Shown: positions 26,957 through 42,300 of the stretch, piece after piece
Layout: each line of letters starts with the position of its first letter
Numbering within the stretch: the first letter of the stretch is position 1
From: Novosphingobium sp. 9
GTDB taxonomy: Bacteria > Pseudomonadota > Alphaproteobacteria > Sphingomonadales > Sphingomonadaceae
Direction: 5' to 3'
Length of the DNA: 64,000 bases
Assembly (NCBI RefSeq): GCF_025340265.1
Contig: NZ_CP022707.1
Coordinates: 1,426,501-1,490,500 of the forward strand
The notes under the pieces: model-generated
Told to the model about the DNA's origin: nothing
Database searches by the model: none
What the model saw: the letters and a program-made list of their open reading frames with translations, nothing else
Program-made: the position numbers and the translations under genes

Positions 26957-27805
26957 CTATCCCAGAGCCTCGCCCTCGATGGTGATGCGGTGCATCTCGC
27001 GGCGGTGCCCGGCATAGTCGTTGTAGGCATAGTGCCAGGTCGCGCGGTTGTCCCAGAACGCGATCGAGCCGTCGCGCCAGTGGAAGTCCTCGATGAAGTC
27101 CTCGCTGGTCACATGTTCGTAGACTTCGGCGAGCAGTTCCTTCGAGCGTTCGGCGTCGATCCCCTGAATGTGCAGGGTGAAGCCGGGGTTGACGTAGATC
27201 GCCTTCTTGCCGCTGAGCGGGTGCGTCAGGATGACGGGATGGACCACATCGTCGAGCACGTCGGCGGCGGCGGAATTGCCGATCCGTTCGCCGCGCGTGT
27301 CCTGCCCCGACTCTGCGGGGTAGGCCTTGCTGCCGAAGACGTGGCGGGCCGAATGCACGGCGTTGCGGCCTTCGAGTTGATCGCGCAGGCGCTGCGGCAG
27401 TCCGTCATAGGCCTTGTACATCGAGGCGAAGGCGGTGGCGCCGCCTGTGGGCGGCAGTTCGCGCGCGACGAGGATCGAGCCGAGCGCAGGCTCTGCGTCA
27501 TAGGAATGATCGGTGTGCCAGCCGCCGCCGATATTGTCGCGGTGGTGCTTCTCCTTCACCACCATGGCGATCTCCGGATAGGCGGCATGGGGCGTGAAGA
27601 AGCGGTTGATGTTGATCTGCCCCCAGCGGCGCGCGAAGGCGATGTGGTCCTGCTCGGAGATCGACTGGTCGCGAAAGAAGATCACGCCATGTTCGGCAAA
27701 GGCGCTGCGGATTTCGGCGAACTGGGCTTCGTTGAGGGGCTGCGAGAGGTCTACGCCGAGCACTTCGGCACCGACGCGGCCATGGGACTGGATGGTCAGG
27801 GACAT
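26957..27805 (-). CDS. TauD/TfdA-family Fe(II)/2-oxoglutarate dioxygenase
   Basis: 282 residues from ATG 27805, preceded by GGAG. The iron triad is visible as His and Asp in WHTDHSYDAEP and the distal His in ATWHYAYNDY; the 2-oxoglutarate Arg lies in GHRREMHRITIEGE. The family hydroxylates carbon next to sulfonate or sulfate ester so that sulfite, sulfate or an aldehyde is released. Members also act on chlorophenoxyacetates. Its position directly behind a second TauD gene (142-base gap with an 8-bp CCGGAGCG hairpin at 27852-27886) and beside sulfatase and TonB receptor genes favours sulfur scavenging. Confidence 0.87.
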   Translation of the reverse strand: MSLTIQSHGRVGAEVLGVDLSQPLNEAQFAEIRSAFAEHGVIFFRDQSISEQDHIAFARRWGQININRFFTPHAAYPEIAMVVKEKHHRDNIGGGWHTDHSYDAEPALGSILVARELPPTGGATAFASMYKAYDGLPQRLRDQLEGRNAVHSARHVFGSKAYPAESGQDTRGERIGNSAAADVLDDVVHPVILTHPLSGKKAIYVNPGFTLHIQGIDAERSKELLAEVYEHVTSEDFIEDFHWRDGSIAFWDNRATWHYAYNDYAGHRREMHRITIEGEALG

Positions 27806-27947
27806 TGAGGCAAGCTCCATGTTGATGGTGTTCTGGTGAGGCGGAAAAGAACCGGAGCGCCGGTCATGGGGACACCGACGCTCCGGCGAGGTGCCCCCCA
27901 GGGTTCAAGGGGCCTCAGGACTCGCAGAAGATGGCTTTGGCTTCAGA

Positions 27948-28910
27948 TCATTCCGCCGCTTCGTAGGCCGCACGCTCCTTGCGCACGGTGCGGCTGCGCT
28001 GACCGTCGATGCCGACCGGAACGTCGCCCTTCACCGTGGCACGGCGCAGGGTGCGGCGCTGGAGGCCGAAGTCGGCGACCGCGCGGTGCTGCGTGGCTCG
28101 GTTGTCCCAGAAGGCGACGTCGCCGGGGCGCCACTGCCAGCGCACGGTGTTCTCGGGCCTTGTGATGTGGTCCTGCAGCACTCCGAACAGCCGCGCGGAA
28201 TCGGCTGCATTGAGCCCCACGAAGCGCTTGGCGAAATGGCCGAGCAGCAGGCTGCGCTGGCCCGAAACCGGGTGAACGCGGACCACCGGATGCTCGGTTT
28301 CGTAGATCGTCGAGGCGAAGACCTGTTTCTGGTATTTCTCGCGCTCGGCCAGCGCCGCATCGTCCTTGCCGTCGACCCCGGCGGTGAGGAAGGCCGCATA
28401 ATCGTAATCGTTGGTGTGGACTGCCCGCAAGGTGTTCACCAGCTGGCGGAGCGGTTCGGGCAATTCGTCATAGGCCGTCTCGCCATTGGCCCACAGCGTA
28501 TCGCCGCCCGCTTCGGGAATGGTGATGCCGCGCAGGATCGAGAGCTTCGGGTACGCGTCGGTGAAGGTCACGTCGGTGTGCCAGCTCGATGCCGCGTAGC
28601 CTTCGCGGCTGTCGAGATCGAGAAGGTATTTCGAGCCTTCGGCGACGGGCACTGTCGGGTGCGCCACCGGATCGCCGAACAGCGCGGCGAGCGCCTCGTG
28701 CTCGGCATTGTCGAGGTGCTGCTGATCGCGGAAGAAGATCACCTTGTGGCGCACAAGCGCTTCCTCGATCGCCTGGACGGTGGGGGCATCGAGCGAACCT
28801 GACAGGTCGATCCCGCGGATCTCGGCGCCGATGCGTCCGGCCACGGGGCGGATGTCGAGCGGCGAAGTCGGGTCCTTGGCGTTCGGATAAGTCGCAACGA
28901 AATCGGTCAT
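27948..28910 (-). CDS. TauD/AtsK-like Fe(II)/2-oxoglutarate dioxygenase (probable alkylsulfatase type)
   Basis: 320 residues. Iron ligands are in ASSWHTDVTFTDAYP and ATQHRAVADFG, and the 2-oxoglutarate Arg in RRTLRRATVKGD. The N-terminus DIRPVAGRIGAEIRGIDLSG is typical. Length and the LRAVHTNDYDYA region resemble alkylsulfatase AtsK more than taurine dioxygenase, but this is by eye. It would cleave alkyl sulfate esters oxidatively during sulfate starvation. It heads a two-gene unit with the other dioxygenase. Upstream (28911-29373) lie a conserved leader, a palindromic operator and the terminator of the sulfatase operon. Confidence 0.87.
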   Translation of the reverse strand: MTDFVATYPNAKDPTSPLDIRPVAGRIGAEIRGIDLSGSLDAPTVQAIEEALVRHKVIFFRDQQHLDNAEHEALAALFGDPVAHPTVPVAEGSKYLLDLDSREGYAASSWHTDVTFTDAYPKLSILRGITIPEAGGDTLWANGETAYDELPEPLRQLVNTLRAVHTNDYDYAAFLTAGVDGKDDAALAEREKYQKQVFASTIYETEHPVVRVHPVSGQRSLLLGHFAKRFVGLNAADSARLFGVLQDHITRPENTVRWQWRPGDVAFWDNRATQHRAVADFGLQRRTLRRATVKGDVPVGIDGQRSRTVRKERAAYEAAE

Positions 28911-29094
28911 GAAACTCTCCTGGTCTTGTCTCTTCAGGGTGCACGCCGCCGGGCCGCATCGGGCCTTGTGGGATGGGCGGGTGCAGGCAGATATGTTCGA
29001 GAGGATTGCCGGGCTTCGGGTGGAAGGTCCGGCGCCGGACGCAAGGTCCGGGTTTCGTGCCCGATCAGGGCGTCAGGGAAAGTTTGCGCATCGC

Positions 29095-29207
29095 ATCACC
29101 TCTTGCCGTTCGAGAGGGACCGCGAGGCTTGGCGTCGTCGCCTCAGCATCGCGCGCTTTAGCCGTTGGTATCGCGGAGCAAGCTGCTGTCCGATCAAAAG
29201 CCGCGGA
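29095..29207 (-). promoter_or_regulatory. Conserved leader element, copy A (upstream of dioxygenase pair)
   Basis: About 113 bases homologous to 34977-35085, in the same orientation to its downstream gene. The two copies share a 42-base identical core (29146-29187) and match partly on both sides. In RNA sense both can form a GGCG-ANNA-CGCC hairpin after the core and carry CCCTCTC plus AACGG farther down. The element ends about 185 bases before the dioxygenase start. It is unexplained: a regulatory RNA, a leader-peptide region or a DNA site are all possible. Confidence 0.6.
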
Positions 29208-29250
29208 TCGGGATTACTGCTGAAACCGGCCCGATCACTCCGATTTCTGA

Positions 29251-29273
29251 AACTCAAGTTACTAGGTTGAGTA
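29251..29273 (-). promoter_or_regulatory. AACTC-N13-GAGTA palindrome (candidate sulfur operator)
   Basis: AACTC (29251-29255) and GAGTA (29269-29273) flank 13 bases. The same spaced pattern occurs before the cys operon and the TonB receptor unit. Read on the minus strand it overlaps TATACT, a plausible -10 box, so a bound protein would block transcription of the dioxygenase pair. Confidence 0.5.
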
Positions 29274-29279
29274 TAATGT

Positions 29280-29324
29280 GCAAGCCTGCTTTTTTCGCTT
29301 CGTCGCAGGAAAAAGCAGGCCTGC
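29280..29324. terminator. Strong bidirectional terminator-like hairpin
   Basis: GCAAGCCTGCTTTTTT (29280-29295) pairs with AAAAAGCAGGCCTGC (29310-29324) with one mismatch. The stem ends in A/T runs on both strands, so it can terminate in either direction. It lies just after the sulfatase stop codon, closing the TonB receptor-transporter-sulfatase unit before the dioxygenase promoter. Confidence 0.75.
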
Positions 29325-29373
29325 CGCTGTCAGGAATGGCGGATTTCAGCCACTCTATTTCGGCCGAAAAGTA

Positions 29374-30771
29374 TCAGTATCGGTCGGGATACCATTTCTT
29401 GACGTCCTCGGAGAAACTGCCGAGCGGATAGGGAATCATCTGGGCGTTCCATTTGTCCCACAAGGCCTTGAGTTCCTTCACCTTGTCCTTGTTCACGTCG
29501 AAGAAGTCGGCACGTTCGCGCTCGTCTTGCACGACATTGAACAGGTGTTCCTTGTCGCCCAGCTTCAGGTACTTCCAGTCTCCCTGACGCACGGCGGCCT
29601 GATCGTTCGCCTTGTAGCGCCAGTAGATCGTGCGCGCGACCGGTGCAGCCTTGCCGGTGAGTTGCGGCGAAAGGTCGAGCCCGTCGAACGTGCCGTCCGC
29701 CGATTTGCCGGTGGCGAGCGCGAAGAGGGTGGGCAGCCAGTCCATGCCGACGATCGGCTGGTCGATGTTGGAGCCTGCCGCGATCCTGCCCGGCGCGCGG
29801 ACAAGGCCGGGCACGCGGATACCGCCTTCGAGCAGTTCGCCCTTCTGGCCGACGAAGGGCCAGGTCTCGGAAAAGCGCTCGCCGCCGTTGTCGCTGGTGA
29901 AGACGACGATGGCATCCTCGCGCCCGGCATGCTTGAGCGCGGCAAGGACCTTGCCGACGTTCTCGTCCATGATCTGGGTCATCTCGGCATATTTGGCGAG
30001 ATTGCCGCCCGAGGTGTCGCGGCTGTCCTTCAGGGTCTTGGCGATGGCCTCGTCCTCGCGGCCTTCCCAGGGCCAGTGCGGCGCGTTGAAATGCAGGCTG
30101 AGGAACAGCGGCTTGTCGCCTGCTGCCTCGATTTCCTTCACGGCCTGTGCGCCGAACAGATCGGTGAGATAGCCGGTCGCCTCCAGCGGCTTGTCGCCCT
30201 GCGCGAGGCCGATGCCCACGGGCTTTCCGTCATGCACGGTGTGATGGATGAAGTAGTCCGCTGCGCCTTCGACGATCCCGTAGAAGCTGTCGTAGCCGTG
30301 TTCGAGCGGACCGTTGAGCGGCGGTGTGCCGAGGTGCCACTTGCCGACCAGCGCGGTGCGGTAGCCCGCCTTGCGGAACAGGCCGGGCAGGGTGGGGCGG
30401 TCGGCAGGCAGGCCAAGCCCCGGCGGCAGTTCGGCGAGCGGTTCGTCCAGACCCACCCGGAAGCGGCCCTGATAGCACCCGGTGATGATCGCGGTGCGGC
30501 TGGCCGAACAGACCGGGCTGCTCGAATAGGACTGGTGCAGCACGGTTCCGCCCGTGCCGATGCTGTCGATCGCGGGTGTGCGGATATGGTGCGATCCGGT
30601 GATCGACAGGTCGGCATAGCCCATGTCGTCGGCCATGATGAAGATCACGTCGGGGTAAGGGCGGGTTCCGGTCGCGGCGCGGGCGGCGCCGGCGGGCGCG
30701 GCGATCGCCACGGCACCTGCCGCAGCACCGGCCAGCAGCGAGCGGCGGTCGAGGGAAGACTTGTCGATCAT
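29374..30771 (-). CDS. Secreted sulfatase, type I (formylglycine) family
   Basis: 465 residues. The leader has a twin-arginine motif (DRRSLLAGAAAG) and an AARA end, so Tat export is likely. Metal ligands are in VIFIMADDMGYADLSITG. The modification motif is PVCSASRTAIITG: C-x-A-x-R in place of the usual C-x-P-x-R, still compatible with conversion of Cys to formylglycine. Further family residues are in LVGKWHLG and FTSDNGGERFSETWPFVGQK. It hydrolyses sulfate esters in the periplasm. Third gene of a TonB receptor - GPH transporter - sulfatase unit (26 bases after the transporter), which suggests uptake and desulfation of a sulfated sugar or aryl sulfate. Confidence 0.9.
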   Translation of the reverse strand: MIDKSSLDRRSLLAGAAAGAVAIAAPAGAARAATGTRPYPDVIFIMADDMGYADLSITGSHHIRTPAIDSIGTGGTVLHQSYSSSPVCSASRTAIITGCYQGRFRVGLDEPLAELPPGLGLPADRPTLPGLFRKAGYRTALVGKWHLGTPPLNGPLEHGYDSFYGIVEGAADYFIHHTVHDGKPVGIGLAQGDKPLEATGYLTDLFGAQAVKEIEAAGDKPLFLSLHFNAPHWPWEGREDEAIAKTLKDSRDTSGGNLAKYAEMTQIMDENVGKVLAALKHAGREDAIVVFTSDNGGERFSETWPFVGQKGELLEGGIRVPGLVRAPGRIAAGSNIDQPIVGMDWLPTLFALATGKSADGTFDGLDLSPQLTGKAAPVARTIYWRYKANDQAAVRQGDWKYLKLGDKEHLFNVVQDERERADFFDVNKDKVKELKALWDKWNAQMIPYPLGSFSEDVKKWYPDRY

Positions 30772-30797
30772 AGGGGGGATGGACCTCTCTTGGGGGA

Positions 30798-32252
30798 TTA
30801 TGTCGTGGGCGCAGAAACGGAAGCACCCGATTCGCGCGCGGTGAGGCTATCGCGGATTTCGGCGTGGCGCTTCTCATCGAGCGGGAAACCGTGGATGATG
30901 CTCGCAGAAATGATATGCCCGATCACCGGGCCGAGCGCGAAGACGTACTTCAGGTGCTCCAGAACTTCGGGCGGATTGACCTCGCGCGGGTCGAAGCCCA
31001 GCCAGCCGATCAGCGGCAGCGCGATGCCCACGGCGACGGCGAGCGCGGCCTTGTCCGACAGCGAGAACACCGAATAGAACAGCCCGGTCCGCTCGTGCCC
31101 GGTCTTGAGGCGGTGCGAATCCGCAACGTCCGCGACGATCGCGCGCAGCATCAGGTTGCCCGATCCTTGCGCAAGGCCCTGCGAGACGGTGAGCAGCAAC
31201 AGCAGCGGCCAGGCGCCCGGCGTCACCAGCAGGAGCGCGAAGTTGATCGCCACCTGCGTCAGCTCCCCGGCAACGGCGGCGCGGCCCTTGCCGATGCGGC
31301 GGCCGATGGCGAGCCAGATCGGACAGGCGATGATGCCGAAGACGTACTGCAGCAGGAAGAGGGCGGGCGCCCACGCCGGGCTGCCCATGTAGTGCGCGAC
31401 GAAGAACACGAACAGCGCGGTGCGCGTCCCTTGCGCCAGCCGGATGCCGAAGTTCGAGGCGAGCACGCGGATCAGCAGCTTTTCGCCCAGTACCAGCGAG
31501 GTCGTGCGCCAGAACCCGGTGCGCTCGCCTCGCGGCGGTGCGGTGCTGGCCGGTTCGGGCAGCGCGCGCAGGGAGAAGGGCAGCGCGACCGCCAGCAGCA
31601 CGAAGACCATGATCCCCATCGAGGCGAGCTGATAGCGCGGCTCGTGCGCGAAGCGCTGTGCCAGCAGGCTGGGCACTACCAGCGCCAGCAGCAGCGCGAC
31701 CGACATCAGCCCCTGCCCATAGCTGGCGACGCGGGTGCGCTCGTGATAGGCGGCGGACAGCTCGCCGCTCCACGCCGAATAGGGTGTCGCCATCATCGAG
31801 TAGCCGAGATAGAGCGTGAACAGCGCGGCGCTGAACTCCAGCGGGCCGAACCATGCAGGCGGCAGGAACACGCCTACCGCGCCGAAGGCGAAGATCCACG
31901 CACCCGCGAAGATCCACGGGCGCCGTCTGCCGAAACGGCTGCGGGTGCGGTCGGACAGGATGCCGATGCCGGGGTCGATCACCGCATCCCACAGCCGCGC
32001 GAACAGGAAGATCAGGCCCACCGTCCCCAGCGAGAGCCCGAAGGCGCCCGCGTAGAGCGGCGGCACGTATGTGCTCAGCGGCACTTCCACGGCAGCGAGC
32101 GGCATCCACAGCGTGGAGAAGGCCAGCAGGCGGCGGGTCGGCAGGGGTTGCGCGGATGGGTCGGCTCTGGTCTGCCTGATCTGTAGGCCGTCCTGCACCA
32201 GATCGTCGTTGGCTGGTGCAGCGGCATCGAAGGATGCGGTGATCGAGTTCAT
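30798..32252 (-). CDS. GPH-family (MelB-like) cation-coupled transporter
   Basis: 484 residues with about twelve membrane helices after a 40-residue charged N-terminus. The GPH signature is clear: FLFARLWDAVIDPGIGILSD, then RTRSRFGRRRPWI, and KTGHERTGLFYSVFSLSDKA in the second half. GPH carriers import sugars, glycosides or uronates with Na+ or H+. It lies 28 bases behind the TonB receptor and 26 before the sulfatase. The substrate is therefore probably the desulfated product (or a sulfated sugar), an inference from order only. Confidence 0.88.
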   Translation of the reverse strand: MNSITASFDAAAPANDDLVQDGLQIRQTRADPSAQPLPTRRLLAFSTLWMPLAAVEVPLSTYVPPLYAGAFGLSLGTVGLIFLFARLWDAVIDPGIGILSDRTRSRFGRRRPWIFAGAWIFAFGAVGVFLPPAWFGPLEFSAALFTLYLGYSMMATPYSAWSGELSAAYHERTRVASYGQGLMSVALLLALVVPSLLAQRFAHEPRYQLASMGIMVFVLLAVALPFSLRALPEPASTAPPRGERTGFWRTTSLVLGEKLLIRVLASNFGIRLAQGTRTALFVFFVAHYMGSPAWAPALFLLQYVFGIIACPIWLAIGRRIGKGRAAVAGELTQVAINFALLLVTPGAWPLLLLLTVSQGLAQGSGNLMLRAIVADVADSHRLKTGHERTGLFYSVFSLSDKAALAVAVGIALPLIGWLGFDPREVNPPEVLEHLKYVFALGPVIGHIISASIIHGFPLDEKRHAEIRDSLTARESGASVSAPTT

Positions 32253-32280
32253 CGTCGGTCTCCTGCGAGGGGGCGGCGGG

Positions 32281-34694
32281 TCAGAAGCGGTGGCTGAAGG
32301 TCACGCCGTACGTGCGCGGATTGCCGAGCACTTCGGTGACGGGCGCGGCGGCGCTGGCCGAGCCATAGGACACCGCGTAATGCGTATTGGTGAGGTTGCG
32401 TGCCCAGGCCTGCAGGCTCCACGAACCGTCGGGCGCCTTCACGCCGATCCCGGCGTCGAGCACGGCGTAATTGTCCTGCCAGCCGTAGATCGAGCGGGGA
32501 TTGATCATCGCCGTGCGGCTGCGCCAACTGGTGTTGGCATAGGCCGTCAGCGAGAGATGGTCGCTCAGCGGCTGGTCGAGATCGAGCCCGCCCTGAACCG
32601 TCCACTTCGGCGCGCCGATCACCTGATAGCCGGTGAGGCTGAGCGTCGCGCTCGATCCGCCGAGCGCCGCCTGATACTCCAGCGGCGCCGGGGCATCGTC
32701 GTACGAGAGGTACTTGGCATCGTTGTACGAGGTGTTGAGGTTGATCGAGAGCACCGGGATCGGTCGCGCGCTCGCCTCGAACTCGAACCCGCGCATCCGC
32801 ACCTTGCCGACGTTCGCAAGGTACGTGCCGAACGAGGGGTTCGAGGTGTCGATGCGGTTGCTCTGATAGTCGGTGATGGTGTCGTTGTAGAAGTTGAGGT
32901 TGGCGGTGACGCGCCCGTTGGCCCAGGTGGTCTTGATGCCGCCTTCGAAGTCGGTCGATTTTTCGGGCTTGGTCAGGATCACGTTGGCCTGCGCATACGT
33001 GGCTGATGTGTTCGCTGCGCCCGACTTTTCGCCATGGCTGGCCGAGGCGTAGAGCAACACGTTCTCGTTCACCTGCCAGGCCGGGTTCACCAGCCACGAG
33101 AACGAGCCGCGGTCGCTTTCCGCAGAAAGGTCGTAGGCGCCTGCCTGCGCTGCCGTGGTCCCGCCCAGCGAGGCGAGGAAGGCGTTGCGACTGGTCAGGC
33201 TCGCGCCCGAAACGTCGGCTCCGGCGGCCTGATAGCCCGCCACGTTCACGCTCTTCTTCTCGTAGCTGTAGCGCAGGCCGCCGGTCAGCGAGAGTTTTGA
33301 GGTAACGTGCCAGGTCAGCTGGCCGAACCCGGCGATGGAATCGATGTGCAGATGCCCGTCGCGGTCGTATTCCACGTCGTTCAGGATCGCGCTGTCGGTC
33401 CCGCTTCCAAGGAAGAACGTGCTGGCATCCGAGCCGTAGATCGTGCGCAGGTTGCTCCGCAGATCCTCGTGCAGATAGTAGGTCCCCACCTGCCAGTCGA
33501 TCGCGTGAGTGCCGTTCGAGGCGAGCCGGAATTCCTGCGAATACTGGTTCACGTCCACGTCGTAGCCGCCGCGATAGATGTCGTAGGGGCTGTTGTCGCT
33601 GTCGTTGTAGGGGCGGAAATAGAGCCGCCGCCAGGCGCTGACCGAGGTCAGCTTCACGCCGCCCAGATCCCAGTTCACTTCGTTGGACAGGCCATCGACC
33701 TTGGAAACGAGCCGCCCCTGATTGTCGAGATTGGCGTTGTTGGGCGCATCGAAGCTGGGGGTATAGCCGAAGCGGCTCTCCAGCTTGTTGGTCCAGCTGG
33801 CCGTACGCTGCGAGAGGACCGAACCGTCGAGATTGAGGTTCTGGTTCACGTCGGCGACAACGGGTAGTAGTTGTTGTACTCCCGGCTCTCGTAATGCTCG
33901 GCGATCAGGCGCGAGGAGAGGTTGGGCGTCGGGGTGAACAGCAGTTGCCCGCGCAGCGACCAGCGGTTGTTGTCGAGGTATTTGTTGCCGTCGTAGGCAT
34001 TCCTGATCCAGCCGCCGCCCTGACTGGTTGCGAAGGTCAGGCGATAGGCCAGCTTGTCGTCGATGATCGGACCGGTGGCGTTCACGCGAAGCTGTTTCGC
34101 GCCATAGTTGCCATACGTGCCGGTGAGCGTCAGCGAGGGATCGAAGCTGGGCTTCTGCGTCTGGACGATCACCGCGCCGATGGTGGTGTTCTTGCCCAGC
34201 AGCGTCCCTTGCGGGCCACGCACCACCTGAATGCTTTCGAGGTCGACGAAGTCCAGCCAACTGAAGCCGACATGGGTGAAGAACACGCCATCGACGATCA
34301 GGCCGACGCCGCCTTCCGCGCCGTCGTTGCTGGCGTTGCCGCCAAGGCCGCGGATCGACAGCGCCGAGACGCGGGTGTTCTGTTGCAGCGCGTTGAAGTT
34401 GGGAATGCGGATCGCATAGTCGGATACGCGATCGAGGCGCTTGGCGGCGAGTTCGGCACCGCTGACGGCGGAGATCGCCAGCGGTACGCTTTGCAGGCTT
34501 TCGTCGCGATGGCGCGCGGTGACGACAATGGCGGGGCCGGAGGCACCGTCCGCGCCCTCTGCGCTGTCGGTGGCCGGTGCCGCAGCTACGGCGACCTCCT
34601 TGTCATCGGCAGCGAAGGCCGGGGCGGTAAGCGCGGTGGAAAGCAGAAGGGCACAGAGGGCGCTGGCCCTGCGGCGCGTCGAGGCGGTAAGCAT
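32281..34694 (-). CDS. TonB-dependent outer-membrane receptor, apparent frameshift
   Basis: The length fits one 804-residue protein if a single base is added near 33855-33864. Before the break: signal peptide (ALCALLLSTALTAPAFAAD), TonB-box region AIVVTARHRDESLQSVPLAI and plug domain (ALSIRGLGGN, IQVVRGPQGTLLGKNT). After the break: a long beta-barrel ending LGNPRTYGVTFSHRF, with the C-terminal Phe expected of outer-membrane proteins. The first frame stops after YNNYYPLSPT while the second continues VVADVNQNLNL; a C added before GTT joins them. It energises uptake of a bulky substrate, here probably a sulfated compound given the sulfatase downstream. First gene of the unit, behind leader copy B. 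Confidence 0.87.
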
Positions 34695-34976
34695 GGAATT
34701 TCCTGAACCTTATGAAGGGGCCGGAGGCGCTGTGTTGCTGGTTTGAAGGCGCATCGCGGCAGGTCCGGGCAGGCGTGTGCCGGGCGCGCAACGATAGGCG
34801 CGGCGGCGAACAGTCAGGCCGGACGGAGGATTTTATAGGGCGTGCAAGGCACGCTCGCGCAGCATCGATGCCTGCATGGCAAGCAGCAGAAGGCCGACGA
34901 GGAGCGCGCGTCATCGCGCCGGTTGTTTGGCGGGCGCGGCGGCCCTTAAATGTGCGTGGTCTGGTCGTGCATCGTC

Positions 34977-35085
34977 GTATCACCCCGTTGAGAGGGAACA
35001 CGACGCCTGGCGTGGTCGCCCTGGCATCGCGCGCTTTAGCCGTTGGTATCGCGGAGCAAGCTGCTTCCCGGTCAAAAGCCGCGGG
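34977..35085 (-). promoter_or_regulatory. Conserved leader element, copy B (upstream of TonB receptor)
   Basis: Diverged duplicate of the element at 29095-29207; the 42-base identical core is 35024-35065. It ends about 283 bases before the TonB receptor start. The 660-base gap 34695-35354 holds this leader and an operator-like palindrome; I see no gene in it. Confidence 0.6.
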
Positions 35086-35152
35086 CCGGGTCTGGATATC
35101 CCGACAGGATGTGTCGGGGCGCGAGGGAGGGGCCGGCCACCCGCTCGCTTCA

Positions 35153-35175
35153 ATCTCTACCTACGTGGTCGAGTT
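35153..35175 (-). promoter_or_regulatory. AACTC-N13-GAGAT palindrome (candidate sulfur operator)
   Basis: On the minus strand AACTC (35171-35175) and GAGAT (35153-35157) flank 13 bases, one mismatch from the perfect cys palindrome. It sits upstream of leader copy B, in the same relative order as at the dioxygenase pair, although 67 bases rather than 43 separate it from the leader. Confidence 0.45.
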
Positions 35176-35354
35176 TTGGTGTCAATTGGAATTTCGACGC
35201 ACCGTTCGTCGCAGATCACGCATCGCGGGGATGGGCGGCGCGGTCCGATGCCGCGAAAACCCCGCATATCTGCGCGGCGGCGGACCGGCGCAGCTATGCG
35301 GGGTATGGGCGAAACGCGCTCGCCAAAGGAAATGTTGGGCGTGTGAAAGCGGCG

Positions 35355-35912
35355 TTACCAGCCGCCCGCCACGACCCGTACGATCGTCCCGTGGGCGGTC
35401 GAGGCCATGACGAAGCTGCTGCCTGCGAAATACCAGCCGTAGCCCATCGGTGCGGGAGCAAGGCCATAAGCGGCGGGCTCGACCACCACGTAGCTGCGCA
35501 TCGGCATCGGCAGCACCACGCCGACGGCAAAGGCGCGCCCTGCGTAGCCGACCGGGACCGGGTAATAGCCGTAGCCCGGCGCGTAGTAGTATCCGGGGCG
35601 CGGGCCGTAGAAGGCGGCAAAAGCCGGGGTGCCGCGCCACCAGCCAGGATGGCCGCGATCGACTACAACTACGCCCCGAGGCACTCTGCCATGCGGATAG
35701 CCACCGTGGGCATAGCCACCGTGGGGATAGCCGCCATGAGGCTGGCCATGGCCATCGCCCGGTGGTGTGCCGTGGCCCTGATCATAGCCGCCGCCATGGC
35801 CGTCATCATGGTGGTGCGGATCGGACTGGGCCAAAACGGGCGTTGTCAGCAGGCCGATGGCCAGCGCGGCGCAGGTGGCCCTGGTGAAACGGAAGGAACT
35901 AAATCGAGGCAT
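35355..35912 (-). CDS. RcnB-like periplasmic protein with Gly/His/Tyr repeats
   Basis: 185 residues from ATG 35912 (MPRFSSFRFTRATC). Signal peptide ends near TTPVLAQ. Residues ~32-80 are a low-complexity Gly/His/Pro/Tyr tract with repeated PHGGY units (DNA repeats around 35694-35740), followed by a Tyr/Pro-rich stretch. The end, YGWYFAGSSFVMASTAHGTI, matches the RcnB fold (W..aGs.yvL.d...G.I). RcnB proteins support nickel/cobalt homeostasis in the periplasm, and the His tract would suit metal binding, but many relatives have no known role. It precedes the TonB receptor region on the same strand. Confidence 0.7.
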   Translation of the reverse strand: MPRFSSFRFTRATCAALAIGLLTTPVLAQSDPHHHDDGHGGGYDQGHGTPPGDGHGQPHGGYPHGGYAHGGYPHGRVPRGVVVVDRGHPGWWRGTPAFAAFYGPRPGYYYAPGYGYYPVPVGYAGRAFAVGVVLPMPMRSYVVVEPAAYGLAPAPMGYGWYFAGSSFVMASTAHGTIVRVVAGGW

Positions 35913-36058
35913 GGGGGAACTCCTTGAGGGCGCCCCTTGTGCCGTGCCGTTGCAACCGGCGTTCTTGTCCGATGTGTCGAATTGTAAATGCGAAAACCGC
36001 TTGCGGCTTTTCGACACGGCGTTTGCATCGGGCCGATCTCGGGCTATCGCAAAGGCCC

Positions 36059-37797
36059 ATGACATTCGACCAGATCGCCATCGTGCTGCTGCTCTCGGCC
36101 ATGTTCATCGCCTTTGCGCTGGACAGGTTCCCGGTCGAGCATGTCGCCGTCGCCGGGTTGACCGGCGCGCTCGTGCTGGGGCTCGTGCCGTTTCACGATG
36201 CCTTTGCAGGCTTTGCCAACCCGGCGGTCGTCACGGTGGTCGAGGTGCTGCTGTTCGTCTCGGTGCTCGCCCGCAGTCACGCGGTGGAGCGATTGGCGGA
36301 ATGGACCGTCTCGCGCTTCGGCAGCGAGCGCGGTGTCCTTGCGGTGATCTGCGGACTGGGCGCTTTCGTGTCTATCTTCATGAACAACATCGGCGCGCTG
36401 GCCCTGGTGTTCCCGGTGGCGCTTTCGGTCTGCGCGCGGATGCAGATCCCGGTGGCGCGAGTGCTGATGCCTTTGTCCTTCGCGACGCTGCTGGGGGGAT
36501 GGGATCGCTGACGGGTACGCCTGCGAACCTCATCGTCAACGACTGGATGGTGCGCGAAACCGGCGGTGGCATGGGCTACTTCACCATCGGTTATGTCGGC
36601 ATTCCGGTGACGATCATCGGCGTTGCCTGGCTGGTGCTGATCGGGCCGCATTCGTTCCGCCGTCTGCGCCGTGTGCCCAGCACGGTGACGCCGACCCCCT
36701 CCCGTTTCCTGTTCGAGATGCGCGTGCGCCCCGGCGCACTGGAAGGCCTGACCCTGCCCGAGGCAGAGCGGCGCCATGACCTGACGATCTACGATGTACT
36801 GCGCGACGGCGCGCATGTCTTTGCGCGGCGCGAGGCGATTACCGTTGCTGCCGGTGACATGCTGCTGGTCGAAGGCGGGATGGAGACGGTCGAGGTGCTG
36901 CAGGATCGCGGGCTGGTCGACGCCGGGCTGGGCACGGGCAAGCCGGGGGGCGAGGACCGGCTGGAAGCGGTGGTCATGCCCGATTCGATGCTGATGGGCT
37001 CGCGGCTCGGCGCGCTCGATCTGCTGAGCGATCACGACGTGTCGGTCGTGGCGCTGGCCAGTCGCCGCCATCGGGTGGAGGGAAGCTTTGGCGATCTCCA
37101 GATCGGCCTGGGTGACGTCATCGTGCTGACCGGTGAGCGGACCTCGCTTGAAGAGGCCGCTGCGGAAGCCGGGTTGCTGCCGCTTTCGGCGCGCCCCGCC
37201 AAGCGGATGCAGCCCGACGCCTATCGCAGCGCAGTGATCTTCGCGATCGGTGTCGCGACCACCGCGCTGGGCTGGCTGCCGCCCGAGATCGCCTTTGGCG
37301 GCGTGGTGGTGGCAATGGCGCTGCTGGGCTCGTTGCGGTTGCGCCATGCCATGCAGGACGTGAACTGGACGATCGTGATCCTGCTGGCCTGCATGATCCC
37401 GCTGGGGCAGGCCGTGCAGGATACAGGCGCCGCGCACGTGATCGCCAATGCCCTGATCGATGCCATGCCGGTGGGCGGTCCGCTGACGGTAACGGCGGTG
37501 ATCCTGCTGATGGCGGCGACGCTGACGACATTCGTAGATAATGTATCGACGGCTGCGGTGCTCAGCCCGGTCGCGTCGGGGCTGGCGACACGGGCCGGAT
37601 TGCCGGTCGAACCGCTGCTGATCGCGGTCGCCATCGGCACCTCGCTCGATTTCCTGACGCCGTTCGGGCACCATAACAACACGGTGGTGATGGGGGCGGC
37701 AGGCTATCGCTTCCGCGACTTTCCCAAGCTGGGACTGCCGCTGATCTTCCTGTGCCTGTTGACTGCGCTGCTGGTCGAACGGGTACTGTTCTTCTGA
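36059..37797 (+). CDS. SLC13/SAC1-type anion permease with TrkA-C domains, apparent frameshift
   Basis: Length fits 579 residues if one G is added to the G6 run at 36493-36498. Without it the frame stops as LLGGWDR; with it the text reads LSFATLLGGMGSLTGTPANL, the most conserved site of the family. Membrane helices flank a soluble centre with TrkA-C-like segments (LPEAERRHDLTIYDVLRDGA ... VAAGDMLLVEGG and a second copy near VIVLTGERTSL). The second transport half has LTTFVDNVSTAAVLSP and GTSLDFLTPFGHHNN. Such proteins (e.g. SAC1-like sulfate transporters) move sulfate or dicarboxylates. Placement 55 bases before the Rrf2 regulator and the cys operon favours sulfate. Confidence 0.83.
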
Positions 37798-37827
37798 CGG
37801 ATTGGCTTTTTACGCGAATTCGTATAT

Positions 37828-37844
37828 CCTACCCGCATAATAGG
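37828..37844. promoter_or_regulatory. CCTA-N9-TAGG dyad before the Rrf2 gene
   Basis: CCTA (37828-37831) and TAGG (37841-37844) lie in the 55-base gap before the regulator. On the minus strand the right half extends to TTTCCCTATTAT, resembling ATTCCCTATCAAC beside the cys operator. It could be an autoregulatory site; weak. Confidence 0.3.
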
Positions 37845-37852
37845 GAAATGGC

Positions 37853-38329
37853 ATGATTTCGAACAAGGCCCGTTACGCCTTCCGCGCTCTTCTGGCGCTG
37901 GCCTGCGCACCCGAGGGTGAGGCAACGGCGAGTGCGGACATCGCTGCGCGCTATGCGATCCCGCACAAGTTCCTCGAACAGATCCTGATCGACCTCAAGA
38001 AAGCCGGTGTCCTCGACAGCAAGCGCGGAAAATACGGCGGCTATGTCATGCTGCGCCCTGCGGATACCGTGACTTTCGGGGAAATCCTGCGCCTTTTCGA
38101 AGGGCCGCTGGCGCCGCTGTCCTGCCTGTCGCGCCAGTCCTATCGCCGGTGCGACGATTGTCCTAGCGAGGCGCAGTGCGCGCTGCGGCGGGAGTTCGGC
38201 GCCGCTTACGATGCCTATCGGAGCGTGCTCGATTCGCGCACGCTGGCGGATGCGTTGCGGGGTGGCGCGAGCGAGGACGATTTCGCAAACGGCGAAGAAA
38301 GTGACGGATTCGTGCGCAGAATGGCCTGA
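37853..38329 (+). CDS. Rrf2-family transcriptional regulator with cysteine cluster
   Basis: 158 residues. The N-terminal winged helix-turn-helix is typical (MISNKARYAFRALLALACAP, IAARYAIPHKFLEQILIDLK, SKRGKYGGYVMLRP). Near residue 97 the Cys pattern is C-x8-C-x2-C-x5-C in LSCLSRQSYRRCDDCPSEAQ. IscR, NsrR and RirA ligate Fe-S clusters in the same region, though with different spacing; CymR-type sulfur regulators lack such cysteines. I infer a redox- or Fe-S-sensing repressor. It sits between a presumed sulfate permease and the sulfate ABC operon (68 bases to sbp), and three sulfur-unit promoter regions share one palindrome, so it is the likely regulator of the island. Confidence 0.85.
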   Translation: MISNKARYAFRALLALACAPEGEATASADIAARYAIPHKFLEQILIDLKKAGVLDSKRGKYGGYVMLRPADTVTFGEILRLFEGPLAPLSCLSRQSYRRCDDCPSEAQCALRREFGAAYDAYRSVLDSRTLADALRGGASEDDFANGEESDGFVRRMA

Positions 38330-38347
38330 AACAAGGCCCTTGCTATT

Positions 38348-38388
38348 CCCTATCAACTCGATAGAGTTTATCGAGTTTAGAGATAGGG
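38348..38388. promoter_or_regulatory. Nested palindrome upstream of sbp (candidate Rrf2 operator)
   Basis: AACTCGATA (38355-38363) and TATCGAGTT (38369-38377) are perfect 9-base inverted arms with a 5-base spacer, flanked by CCCTATC (38348-38354) and GATAGGG (38382-38388), also inverted. It ends nine bases before the sbp start. It is the best copy of the AACTC-N13-GAGTT pattern in the window. Confidence 0.65.
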
Positions 38389-38397
38389 GAGTATGCC

Positions 38398-39480
38398 ATG
38401 TCGAAGTCCGCCAAGGCGCAGGGTAAATCCCGTGCCGGTTTTCGCTTTGCTCGCGTCGTTGCGCTGGCCGGGCTGCTTGCGGGCACATCGCTGTTGAGTG
38501 CATGCGGTTCCGGCCACGATGCCAAGGGCGGCGGATCGGCCTCGATCGAACTGCTGAACGTCTCCTACGATCCGACGCGCGAGTTGTACCGCGATCTCAA
38601 CGATGCCTTTGCCGATCAGTGGAAGGCGCAGCACGGCGGGCAGACCCTGAAGATCAACATGAGCCATGGCGGCTCGGGCAAGCAGTCGCGCGCGGTGATC
38701 GACGGGCTGGGGGCCGATGTGGTCACGCTGGCGCTGGCCTACGATATCGACGCGATCGCCCAGAAGACCAAGCTGCTGGACCCCAAGTGGGAAAGCAAGC
38801 TGCCCGACAACAGCGCGCCGTACACCTCGACCATCGTGTTCCTGGTGCGCAAGGGCAATCCCAAGAACATCCATGACTGGGCGGACCTGACGAAGCCCGG
38901 TGTCGAGGTGATCACGCCCAACCCGAAGACCAGCGGCGGCGCCCGCTGGAACTTCCTTGCCGCCTGGGCCTATGGCCGCAAGGCAGGGGGCTCGGATGCC
39001 GCGGCGCAGGCCTATGTGACCGATCTGTTCCGCCATGTGCCGGTGCTCGATTCCGGCGCGCGCGGCGCGACGACGACCTTCGTCGAGCGCGGCATGGGCG
39101 ATGTCCTGCTGGCCTGGGAGAACGAGGCGTTCCTCTCGCAGAAGGAGCTGGGCGCGGGCAAGTTCGACATCGTCGTACCCTCGATCTCGATCCTGGCAGA
39201 ACCGCCGGTCGCGGTGGTGGACGGCAATGCCAGGAAGCACGGCACGACGGCCGTCGCCGATGCCTATCTCAAGTTCCTCTACACGCCCGCCGCACAGGAA
39301 ATCATCGCGCGCCATTATTACCGTCCGCGCGATCCGCAGGTGGCGGCGAAATACGCCTCGACCTTCCCCAAGCTCGATCTGGTGACGATCAAGGACTTCG
39401 GCGGCTGGCAGGCTGCGCAGACCAAGTTCTTCGCGGACGGCGGGGTGTTCGACAAGATCTTTGCGCAGGCCAAGCAATAA
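38398..39480 (+). CDS. sbp: Sulfate ABC transporter substrate-binding protein
   Basis: 360 residues. N-terminal signal ends in lipobox-like [10 protein letters not shown], so it may be a lipoprotein held at the inner membrane rather than a free periplasmic protein. Sulfate-binding family signatures: [59 protein letters not shown] and [12 protein letters not shown]. It captures sulfate (or thiosulfate) and hands it to CysT/CysW. First gene of sbp-cysT-cysW-cysA-yezD, 11 bases before cysT, and directly behind the nested palindrome. Confidence 0.93.
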
Positions 39481-39491
39481 GGCATTCTCCC

Positions 39492-40403
39492 ATGGACATT
39501 GCATTGAGCAGGCAACTGCAGATGCCGGACGAGACCGTTTTGCAGCCCCCGCCACCTTCGCACCCCAAGGCGAAGCGGCGGTGGCTGCGGCAGACCGCGA
39601 TCCCCGGCTTCGCACCGACGCTGGGCTTTACCCTGGCCTGGCTGACGATCATCGTGCTGATCCCGCTGGCCGTGCTGTTCCTGCGCGCCGCAGGGATGAC
39701 ATGGCACGATTTCATGGCGGTCGGCCTCTCCGAACGCGCGCTCGATGCCTACAAGCTCAGCTTCGGGGCATCGCTGGCGGCGGCCGGGATCAATACCGTG
39801 TTCGGCCTTGCCATTGCCTGGGTGCTGGTGCGCTACGAGTTTCCGGGGCGCCAGCTGATGGGGGCGCTGGTCGATCTGCCGTTCGCGCTGCCCACGGCGG
39901 TTGCCGGTATCGCGCTGACCTCGCTGTGGGCGGCCAACGGCTGGCTGGGCGCGCTGGTGGCGCCGCTGGGGATCAAGGTGGCCTTCACGCCGATCGGGGT
40001 GATCGTGGCGCTGATCTTCATCGGGCTGCCGTTCGTGGTGCGCTCGGTCGAGCCGATGCTGGCCGATCTGGGCGTGGATGTGGAGGAAGCCGCGATGACG
40101 CTGGGCGCCTCGCCGTTCCAGACCTTTCGCAAGGTGATCCTGCCCGCGCTCGGCCCCTCGCTGCTGACCGGCTTTGCGATGGCCTTCGCGCGCGGGGTGG
40201 GCGAATACGGCTCGGTGATCTTCATCGCCGGCAACATGCCCTACAAGTCGGAGATCGCGCCCTTGCTGATCGTCACCCAGCTTGAACAGTTCGACTATGC
40301 CGGGGCGACCGCGATCGCCAGCGTGATGCTGGTGGCCTCGTTCATCCTGCTGCTGCTGATCAACCTGCTGCAGTACTGGACCCGCAAGCGAGGTGCCGCA
40401 TGA
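39492..40403 (+). CDS. cysT: Sulfate ABC transporter permease CysT
   Basis: 303 residues with six membrane helices after a 30-residue cytoplasmic start. The ABC permease EAA loop is seen as EEAAMTLGASPFQTFRKVIL. The CysT/CysU pattern PGFAPTLGFTLAWLTIIVLI and LPFALPTAVAGIALTSLWA supports the assignment. It pairs with CysW to form the inner-membrane channel. The stop overlaps the cysW start by four bases (ATGA). Confidence 0.93.
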   Translation: MDIALSRQLQMPDETVLQPPPPSHPKAKRRWLRQTAIPGFAPTLGFTLAWLTIIVLIPLAVLFLRAAGMTWHDFMAVGLSERALDAYKLSFGASLAAAGINTVFGLAIAWVLVRYEFPGRQLMGALVDLPFALPTAVAGIALTSLWAANGWLGALVAPLGIKVAFTPIGVIVALIFIGLPFVVRSVEPMLADLGVDVEEAAMTLGASPFQTFRKVILPALGPSLLTGFAMAFARGVGEYGSVIFIAGNMPYKSEIAPLLIVTQLEQFDYAGATAIASVMLVASFILLLLINLLQYWTRKRGAA

Positions 40404-41239
40404 GCCGGGCCTTGTCCTCTGCAGGCACCCGGCTTGGCCGTGGGGCGCTGATCGCGCTTGCCATGGGCTTCCTGCTGCTGTTCCTGCTGGCGCCGCTGAT
40501 CGTGGTGTTCGTCGAGGCGCTGTCCAAGGGCTTTGGCGCCTATTTCGAGGCGCTGGTCGACCCTGATGCCATTTCGGCGATCCAGCTGACGCTGCTGGTC
40601 GCGGCGATCAGCGTACCGCTCAACGTCGTGTTCGGCCTTGCCGCGAGCTGGGCGATCACCCGCTTCGACTTTCGCGGCAAGAGCATCCTGATCACCCTGA
40701 TCGACCTGCCGATTTCGGTATCGCCGGTGGTCTCGGGCCTGATCTTCGTGCTGCTGTTCGGCGCACAAGGACTGCTTGGCCCGTGGCTGGCCGATCAGGG
40801 CGTGCAGATCATCTTCGCGGTGCCCGGCATCGTGCTGGCGACGGTGTTCATCACCTTCCCCTATGTGGCGCGCGAACTGATCCCGCTGATGAGCGAGCAG
40901 GGGCGCGACGACGAACTTGCCGCGCTCTCGCTCGGCGCCAGCGGCTGGCAGACCTTCCGCCGGGTCACGCTGCCCAATGTGCGCTGGGGGCTGCTCTATG
41001 GTGTGCTGCTGTGCAACGCGCGCGCCATGGGGGAATTCGGCGCGGTTTCGGTGGTCTCCGGCCATATCCGGGGCGAGACCAACACGATGCCGCTGCATGT
41101 CGAGATCCTCTACAACGAATACAACTTCGTGGCCGCCTTCGCCGTCGCCTCGCTGCTGGCGATGCTGGCGCTCGTGACGCTGGCTCTCAAGAGCCTGCTG
41201 GAGTGGCGCTTCGATATCCATGAAAGGGCCAGACATTGA
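40400..41239 (+). CDS. cysW: Sulfate ABC transporter permease CysW
   Basis: 279 residues, six membrane helices. EAA-type loop [20 protein letters not shown]; CysW features [19 protein letters not shown] and [19 protein letters not shown]. It forms the channel with CysT. It overlaps cysT by four bases and cysA by four, so subunit stoichiometry is kept by translational coupling. Confidence 0.93.
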
Positions 41240-42300
41240 TCCGCCTGGAAAACATCTCGAAAAGCTTCGGCACCTTCGCGGCGCTGAACGACGTCAGCCT
41301 GACCGTCAACGACGGCGAGTTCCTGGCCCTGCTGGGACCGTCCGGCTCGGGCAAGACCACCTTGCTGCGCATCATCGCGGGGCTTGAATTTGCCGAGAGC
41401 GGCCGCGTGCTGTTCGAGGACGAGGACGTCACCCATCGCAAGGTGGCGGACCGCAAGGTCGGTTTCGTGTTCCAGAACTATGCGCTGTTCCAGCACATGT
41501 CGGTGCGTGACAACGTGGGCTTTGGCCTGTCCGTCCGCAAGCGCAGCGAACGGCCCAAGGCACGGGCAATCCGCGAGCGGGCGCAGGAACTGCTCGAACT
41601 GGTGCAGCTTGGCCATCTGGGAGACCGCGTGCCCGCGCAGCTTTCCGGCGGCCAGCGCCAGCGCGTGGCACTGGCCCGCGCGCTCGCGGTCGAGCCGCGC
41701 CTGCTGCTGCTGGACGAGCCGTTCGGCGCGCTCGATGCCAAGGTTCGCAAGGACTTGCGCCGTTGGCTTCGGAGCTTGCACGAGCAGATGGGACTGACTT
41801 CGATCTTCGTGACGCACGATCAGGAAGAGGCGCTCGAACTGGCCGATCGTATCGTGGTGATGGATCACGGCGTGATCGAGCAGGTCGGCGCGCCCGAAGA
41901 CATCTACACCGCGCCCGGCAGCGCCTTCGTCTCCGATTTTGTGGGTGAGACCAACCGTATCGGTGTGAGCGTTCAGGGCGGGCAGGCCTTCTTCGCGGGA
42001 CAGGCGATCCGGGTGCCGCTCGATGGCCTTGTCGAAGGCCCGGCCGATCTGCATTTCCGGCCGCACGATGCCCGGCTGTGCGAAACGGGTTCTCCCGGCT
42101 CCCTGCCGCTGCTCGTCCACCAGACCTACCGCAAGGGTGGGCACTGGCGGGTCGAGGGCCGCATCGAGGGGCTGGACCGCCCGATCGAGGTCGACGTTCC
42201 CGCAGAGGCTCCGGCGCCTGCCGCCGGACTTCGCATTGGCGTGCAGCTTGCGCGCGCCATGGTATTTCCCAGCAAGGAAGGATCCGCTCATGCAGGATGA
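41236..42300 (+). CDS. cysA: Sulfate ABC transporter ATP-binding protein CysA
   Basis: 354 residues from TTG 41236. Walker [20 protein letters not shown]-loop [10 protein letters not shown], signature [16 protein letters not shown], Walker [13 protein letters not shown] and switch His in [13 protein letters not shown] are complete. The C-terminal part (from ~240) has the TOBE-like regulatory domain of sulfate/molybdate ATPases. It drives sulfate import through CysTW. Its last codons overlap the start of the small YezD-like gene by 11 bases. Confidence 0.94.

Follow-up and report, generated by a model that had tools for sequence, protein, structure and literature searches.

How is sulfur acquisition controlled where several sulfur units lie side by side, each preceded by a similar palindrome? 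The question is raised by a stretch of DNA from the alphaproteobacterium Novosphingobium sp. 9 (64,000 nucleotides; contig NZ_CP022707.1, positions 1,426,501 to 1,490,500), referred to here as the window, whose own numbering is used throughout. In it, a sulfate transporter operon, a TonB-dependent receptor unit and a pair of TauD-family dioxygenases surround a gene for an Rrf2-family regulator, and an earlier note on this DNA proposed that this one protein represses all of them through a shared AACTC-N13-GAGTT palindrome. Comparison with related genomes supports the palindrome as the predicted operator of an Rrf2-family sulfur regulator. Additionally, two of the three operators are followed by a leader RNA that, judged from its sequence, is a diverged homolog of the SAM-II riboswitch (RF00521). 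Computation demonstrates the operator, the leader, their pairing and the homology to SAM-II; read jointly, they would constitute a two-layer control of sulfur genes, which we consider fairly probable.

Operator and Rrf2 regulator

The regulator gene and the three operators are as follows.

37853..38329, plus strand: Rrf2-family regulator, 158 residues
29251-29273, minus strand: operator of the dioxygenase pair; overlaps a candidate promoter, TTGCAC-N16-TAACTT (29283 to 29256; by eye)
35153-35175, minus strand: operator of the TonB-receptor unit; overlaps a candidate promoter, TTGACA-N16-TAGGTA (35185 to 35158; by eye)
38346-38368, strand unassigned ("."): operator before sbp-cysTWA in its corrected register, from alignment with the rrf2-sbp gaps of relatives; 14/18 positions of the broader pattern given below

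The three palindromes described in the earlier note are present at 29251-29273 and 35153-35175, with one mismatch each, and at 38355-38377, where the match is exact. Three or more matches with at most one mismatch arose in 1 of 100 dinucleotide shuffles of the window (mean 0.67), and the exact AACTC-N13-GAGTT sequence occurs at one place in the 4.39-Mb genome. At one mismatch, the literal ten-base pattern is found at 43 places genome-wide, against 20 for a reversed control, and is therefore weakly specific. The shared motif is real but was drawn too narrowly, as further bases are conserved; the broader pattern derived from the leaders of the family, WTCTCWACY-N5-RGTWGAGAW (18 scored positions in 23 bp), has 14 places in the Novosphingobium sp. 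9 genome with at most three mismatches, compared with 2 for the control. The palindrome before sbp also stands, but its register was nine bases off: the rrf2-sbp gaps of relatives place the operator at 38346-38368 (TTCCCTATCAACTCGATAGAGTT; aligned counterpart in locus L077, for example, ATCCCTACTACATAGATAGAGAT), and the AACTC-N13-GAGTT at 38355 is the product of overlapping half-sites forming a longer palindrome that the aligned relatives do not have. This sbp site scores weakest on the broader pattern, with 14/18; the other two window sites score 15 and 16. The window operators of the two units with a leader cover the likely -10 region, a position that fits repression. Upstream of many sites, a -35 box resembling TTGA or TTGC can be seen.

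Six of the 14 sites in the own genome were traced to a gene, namely a TonB receptor, a TauD, an SDF symporter, two serine hydrolases and a chloride channel. The two operator-like sites adjoining serine hydrolase genes of family PF06821 are G000:C1:2086207 (L141) and G000:C2:210489 (L142), and a hydrolase of this family also stands behind the leader in relatives (L186, L190). Directly upstream of an SDF-family symporter gene, 4 kb before the window begins, is another site, with two mismatches (G000:C1:1422481; L140:3482).

The Rrf2 gene does lie amid the sulfur units, directly before sbp, and its product scores 108.9 bits against NCBIfam rrf2_super, above the cut-off of 73.3. The more specific CymR and IscR equivalogs are not reached (66.3 bits vs a cut-off of 195, and 60.9 vs 207.55, respectively). 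Four cysteines, C91, C100, C103 and C109, are invariant across 22 aligned Rrf2 sequences.

The link between this regulator and the operator is supported by the placement of sites. Across 59 Rrf2 loci, 25 sites scoring at least 15/18 were found in 20 loci and none in block-shuffled copies; 14 of the sites lie after the Rrf2 gene, 10 before it and 1 elsewhere, and the sbp operator sits between rrf2 and sbp both in the window and in relatives. In the loci examined, sites after Rrf2 precede a sulfate-binding gene, a TauE gene, or a small YezD-like gene that is followed by a TonB receptor or another gene. Such an order, from operator to YezD-like gene to TonB receptor, TauE or another gene, is seen in L040:2101-2310, L044, L028, L037 and L045, whose Rrf2 proteins are 33-36% identical to that of the window; the leader model R1, introduced below, found no leader in these five loci. 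Site numbers likewise follow the regulator. A close Rrf2 match (E ≤1e-15) is present in 75 of 149 genomes of the family, and these 75 hold 128 sites with at most two mismatches, against 19 for the control.

A leader RNA behind two of the operators

The earlier note made no mention of a near-identical leader lying 3ʹ of two of its three sites. Between operator and coding sequence, the two window leaders are 87% identical over 106 nucleotides; the sbp-cysTWA unit has the operator without a leader. The R1 scores below are for copies that are themselves part of the model.

34949..35093, minus strand: SAM-II-like leader upstream of the TonB receptor; core, from P1 to the pseudoknot, 35083-35031; R1 127.1 bits
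34946..34972, minus strand: short open reading frame (ORF) in this leader, MHDQTTHI; peptide not conserved
29068..29215, minus strand: SAM-II-like leader upstream of the dioxygenase pair; core, 29205-29153; R1 121.3 bits
29065..29091, minus strand: short ORF in this leader, MRKLSLTP

A BLAST search with the leader matched 24 of the 149 family genomes, two of them (G154, G201) by very short matches only. The model R1 was built from 26 of the 30 BLAST loci; L062, L067, L068 and L069, in which the core search was negative, were left out, and R1 later matched L062 and L067 and not L068 and L069. Scanning with R1 located the leader in 49 of 397 genomes of the family and in 74 of 385 across the class.

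In the sphingomonad family, operator and leader belong together. An operator of at least 14/18 accompanies 25 of 28 leaders in the first family set (the exceptions being L053, L063 and L072), some of which helped to define the operator pattern, vs 0 of 29 leaders from other orders; L104, a repeat of the L063 leader, was excluded from this count and from the gene count below. Outside the defining set, 39 of 45 leaders have the operator, where shuffles give an expectation of 0.36. The same is seen in named records, with an operator at 71 of 81 distinct leaders (0.68 expected), although these genomes are partly the same as in the earlier sets. The 81 come from the 80 loci listed, out of 120 or more stretches, in Novosphingobium, Sphingobium, Sphingopyxis, Sphingomonas, Croceibacterium and others; Sphingobium sp. 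SYK-6 is among the leader-bearing records (NC_015976). The leader also follows the regulator: all 22 genomes with R1 matches have a close Rrf2 vs 53 of 127 others (Fisher 8e-8), a comparison that takes its R1 matches from the 397-genome scan and assumes that the 149 genomes were among the 397. With the leader identified by BLAST in the same 149 genomes, the proportions are 23/24 and 52/125 (5e-7).

The leader combines a stem (P1) and a pseudoknot, which pairs UUGC with GC(U)AA and has UUU as its third strand, with two hairpins, the second of which surrounds the Shine-Dalgarno sequence of a small-protein gene or short ORF. A first reading of the pseudoknot as CUUU/AAAG was dropped in favor of the published SAM-II pairing of UUGC with GC-U-AA. 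The TonB-unit leader aligns with RF00521 from end to end (model positions 1-79) at 11.3 bits. Thirteen SAM-II positions, U10-U12, U20-C23 and G42-A47, are described as completely conserved (PMC3764141); 65 of the 73 family leaders and all 29 from other orders have every one of them. The eight family leaders that depart from this set include degenerate copies such as L195, L199 and L200 and some with one or two changed bases. The G8-C23-G42 triple of the metX structure is not retained, the base read as G8 being C in 63 of the 65 core-keeping family leaders; this triple is absent from the fully conserved triples in the available part of the same source (PMC3764141). Across the class, RF00521 at E ≤1 coincides with the R1 position in 11 of 20 loci scanned, only L132 lying above the gathering cut-off there. 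In four loci from other orders (L120, L127, L129, L106), two SAM-II-type elements stand in tandem, approximately 110-160 nucleotides apart.

Covariation was sought in both halves of the leader. In the available part of the original description, SAM-II P1 and the pseudoknot P2 are supported by covariation (PMC1273637); here, these elements give no such support because the core hardly varies. The downstream hairpins do covary, with a score of 0.253 vs 0.095 in shuffles (0 of 500 reach it) and 108 cells with two-sided change vs 38, both in an alignment fitted to the model. In the unfitted family alignment, the corresponding cells number 16 vs 9, reached by 4 of 500 shuffles.

The genes behind the leader suggest what it serves. 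The 73 family leaders precede 34 TonB receptors, 3 SsuA-like binding proteins, 4 serine hydrolases, 4 glutamine-amidotransferase-like proteins, 2 pyridoxal-phosphate aldolase-like proteins, 1 CysE-like protein and the TauD of the window; of the other 24, 11 were scanned with Pfam and showed no sulfur-related family, and 13 fell outside the scan. Several ORFs picked by length after leaders look spurious. Among the 80 named leaders, the first recognized gene is a TonB receptor in 26, an amidotransferase in 15, a TauD in 9, CysE in 4, and a sulfatase and a serine hydrolase in 1 each. In other orders, where 10 of 29 loci were annotated, the leader stands before metY/metZ-like genes (L106, L113), a MetN-like gene (L110), metX (L112), cysG (L124) and a sulfate-binding protein gene (L131), from which it appears that this kind of RNA has a broader role in sulfur metabolism, one that sphingomonads seem to have extended to TonB receptors and scavenging genes.

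A conserved small protein stands behind 40 of 130 distinct leaders, usually just 3ʹ of the second hairpin, and was found by a pattern for its last residues. It has about 46-67 residues (the starts are uncertain), with a basic start, PH[SP]SW in mid-protein and FWxRLG at the end; one example is at L262:2955-3107 on the minus strand. Six of these proteins, scanned against Pfam and NCBIfam, matched no family. A profile of 24 found six copies in the 149 family genomes, all six directly behind a leader, although four of them belong to the profile and weak relatives could have escaped the search. Among the 24 aligned proteins, 6 of 1232 residues after the start are cysteine or methionine, a count for which no background was computed. 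In the window genome, no small-protein match was found at E ≤0.001. A conserved leader peptide common to the leaders was considered and rejected, since TonB and TauD leaders show no conservation in their peptides and the conserved small protein belongs to a separate subset of leaders.

Proposed two-layer control and competing explanations

We infer that the Rrf2 protein binds the operator and that S-adenosylmethionine (SAM) binds the leader, both as off-switches. When sulfur is ample, the Rrf2 protein, sitting over the -10 region, would block the promoters of sulfur-acquisition genes; as sulfur falls, it would leave the operator and transcription would begin. Transcripts that contain the leader would then face a second test, in which SAM stabilizes the pseudoknot, the Shine-Dalgarno hairpin is kept closed and expression is lowered at high SAM. 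The DNA layer and the RNA layer would thereby read two points of sulfur status. In both window units with a leader, the first large ORF starts well over 100 nucleotides past the short ORF, an arrangement that recalls the translation at a distance described for the Sinorhizobium meliloti metA leader in the available part of PMC9373788. In Ca. Pelagibacter, sulfur limitation raises the expression of genes behind SAM riboswitches, according to the available part of PMC5069961.

Several results weigh against this explanation. At the RNA level, the RF00521 gathering cut-off of 36 bits lies well above the scores of the window leader (11.3) and of two relatives (19.4 and 19.0), and because this curated cut-off was tested and not reached, the leader is filed as SAM-II-like and not as a member. 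Rfam scans gave no match in the window up to E 0.1 and no SAM_alpha in seven leader loci up to E 10. The GA that precedes UUU in the Rfam consensus is replaced by CU in the window leader. P1 is invariant in 56 distinct rows and the pseudoknot strands in 26, RNAalifold found no compensatory change in 10 pairs of the family alignment, and the two window leaders fold no better than shuffles (z -0.66 and 0.39). The proposed closing of the hairpin is without support from the folding estimate: mean unpaired Shine-Dalgarno accessibility is 0.21 with and 0.24 without the aptamer, which indicates no switch, and 11 of 28 leaders show a lower value when the aptamer is present. Among targets, no reference gene was recognized downstream of 24 of the 80 named leaders, and 4 of the 10 annotated loci of other orders are without a sulfur or methionine gene, with a LysR gene in L107, a heme gene in L114 and nothing in L111 and L117. 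At the DNA level, no site of at least 15/18 was found in 39 of the 59 Rrf2 loci, and it is for this reason that our confidence in the whole explanation was lowered slightly, to the level given at the outset. Finally, the co-occurrence statistics for Rrf2, sites and leaders ignore relatedness.

The claim that one Rrf2 protein represses the sulfur uptake genes together gains comparative support, as sites flank Rrf2 genes and site numbers track Rrf2. An account of the window in terms of Rrf2 alone is nevertheless incomplete: the sbp register was off, the 39 loci above are without a site, and two of the units have a SAM-II-like leader that it left out.

Among the alternatives, the one that survives best, though we judge it unlikely, keeps the SAM-II ancestry of the leader and changes its ligand, for example to S-adenosylhomocysteine, cysteine or another sulfur metabolite matched to the new targets. 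The loss of GA before UUU points this way, as do the recognized targets, which are mostly uptake and scavenging genes and not methionine synthesis, but the published SAM-contact positions (U11, U21, U44, A47 and G22, in the available part of PMC3764141) are kept in 65 of 73 leaders.

A different objection concerns the DNA layer. LysR-type regulators recognize a T-N11-A consensus, and CysB-type proteins are the usual sulfur regulators of proteobacteria. The TAC-N7-GTA core of the palindrome fits such a box, so that CysB or Cbl, in place of Rrf2, might bind it; even in the 74 family genomes that lack a close Rrf2 there are 46 sites (24 in the control), which fits this view, as do the 39 Rrf2 loci without a site at 15/18. 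The positions of the sites tell against it, since they flank Rrf2 genes and, in the window and relatives, the sbp operator falls in the rrf2-sbp gap; site numbers and leaders also track Rrf2 presence. A LysR-type regulator at the palindrome therefore seems to us a small chance.

The leader could also act as a translational attenuator and not as an aptamer, with ribosome progress on the short ORF setting downstream expression. By a lenient criterion, an ATG with a preceding purine-rich stretch follows the core in 28 of 28 leaders; many such ATGs head a short ORF, and the conserved small protein starts there in 40 of 130. Attenuation is nonetheless improbable in view of the unconserved TonB- and TauD-leader peptides and of an RNA core upstream that is nearly invariant and matches SAM-II. 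That the three palindromes arose by chance or represent generic promoter dyads, as the roughly twofold excess of the literal pattern over control at one mismatch might suggest, has next to no likelihood, since the broader motif is present at 39 of the 45 leaders from beyond the defining set and 0.36 were expected.

Neighboring genes, known systems and significance

With two-layer control by an Rrf2 operator and a SAM-II-type leader as the preferred reading, the remaining genes of the three units can be set out.

38398..42300, plus strand: sbp, cysT, cysW and cysA, sulfate transporter (NCBIfam)
32281..34694, minus strand: TonB-dependent receptor, divided between two frames that overlap; Pfam TonB barrel within 32281-34260
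29374..32252, minus strand: sulfatase and GPH-type transporter (Pfam Sulfatase, MFS_2), on the strand of the TonB receptor and downstream of it
27948..28910, minus strand: TauD-family dioxygenase (Pfam TauD 3.2e-62; 248.5 of the 313 needed for NCBIfam taurine dioxygenase)
26957..27820, minus strand: second TauD-family dioxygenase (Pfam TauD 3.9e-69; 236.4 of 313)

The sulfatase and transporter genes may be cotranscribed with the TonB receptor. The N-terminal frame of the receptor (282 residues) is 68% identical to a receptor in L163, and the frame split at 32281-34694 is either a real frameshift or a sequencing error. Before rrf2, a transporter gene at 35857-37797, which by eye is putatively SLC13-like, shows an apparent frame change near 36500 at a G-rich run; relatives have a similar gene there.

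SAM-II riboswitches and Rrf2 sulfur regulators are both known kinds. With SAM-II (RF00521; SAM_alpha, the metA element), the leader shares P1, the pseudoknot, the UUU third strand and the CUUGC and GCUAAA segments, and in other orders R1 itself detects leaders upstream of metY, metX, MetN-like, cysG and sulfate-binding genes. The sphingomonad leaders differ in scoring below the Rfam cut-off, in the replaced GA and a shortened linker, and in standing behind an Rrf2-linked operator, mostly before uptake genes. In the available part of Leyn 2014 (PMC4239095), SAM_alpha is reported from Rhizobiales and Rhodobacterales alone, its core target being metY; the table there includes seven Sphingomonadales genomes. 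The S. meliloti metA SAM-II leader is similar in its Shine-Dalgarno platform with translation starting away from it and differs in its metA target and terminator; its abstract does not mention an Rrf2 operator (PMC9373788). SAM-V has a SAM-II-like pseudoknot core but helix lengths unlike those of SAM-II, as described in the available parts of PMC6061858 and PMC2704228, and was named a separate class since searches sort it apart from SAM-II (available part of PMC2704228). No SAM-V match appeared in the Rfam scans of the window and leader loci.

On the protein side, the nearest well-known system is CymR of Firmicutes, an Rrf2-superfamily regulator whose structures are among the nearest solved relatives of the window protein. 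CymR controls cysteine and sulfur genes, and its operator differs from the sphingomonad one; the window Rrf2 also misses the NCBIfam CymR cut-off, and its group has the four conserved cysteines. In open-access PMC literature, as represented by titles and abstract starts, there is no recognizable report of an Rrf2 sulfur regulator or of this leader in sphingomonads, and the terms Rrf2, riboswitch and CysB are absent from the available part of a paper on Novosphingobium sulfur genes (PMC5443232). As far as that literature shows, the SAM-II-like subgroup missed by Rfam, its use in sphingomonads, the coupling to an Rrf2-linked operator and the small protein are new. More tentatively, the sphingomonad leaders might form a separate SAM-II-derived subclass behind an Rrf2 operator, shifted from methionine synthesis to scavenging, possibly with changed ligand specificity, and controlling a small protein of sulfur starvation; we regard this as possible and would not expect it.

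For the family, a large environmental one, these results tie an uncharacterized Rrf2 regulator to sulfur acquisition and provide its likely operator. They suggest that SAM-II-type RNAs occur in sphingomonads and at scavenging genes, beyond the reach of the Rfam model, and the small protein behind this leader offers a fresh lead on sulfur starvation. A DNA-level and an RNA-level regulator acting in series on one transcript would raise the question of which sulfur signal each layer reads.

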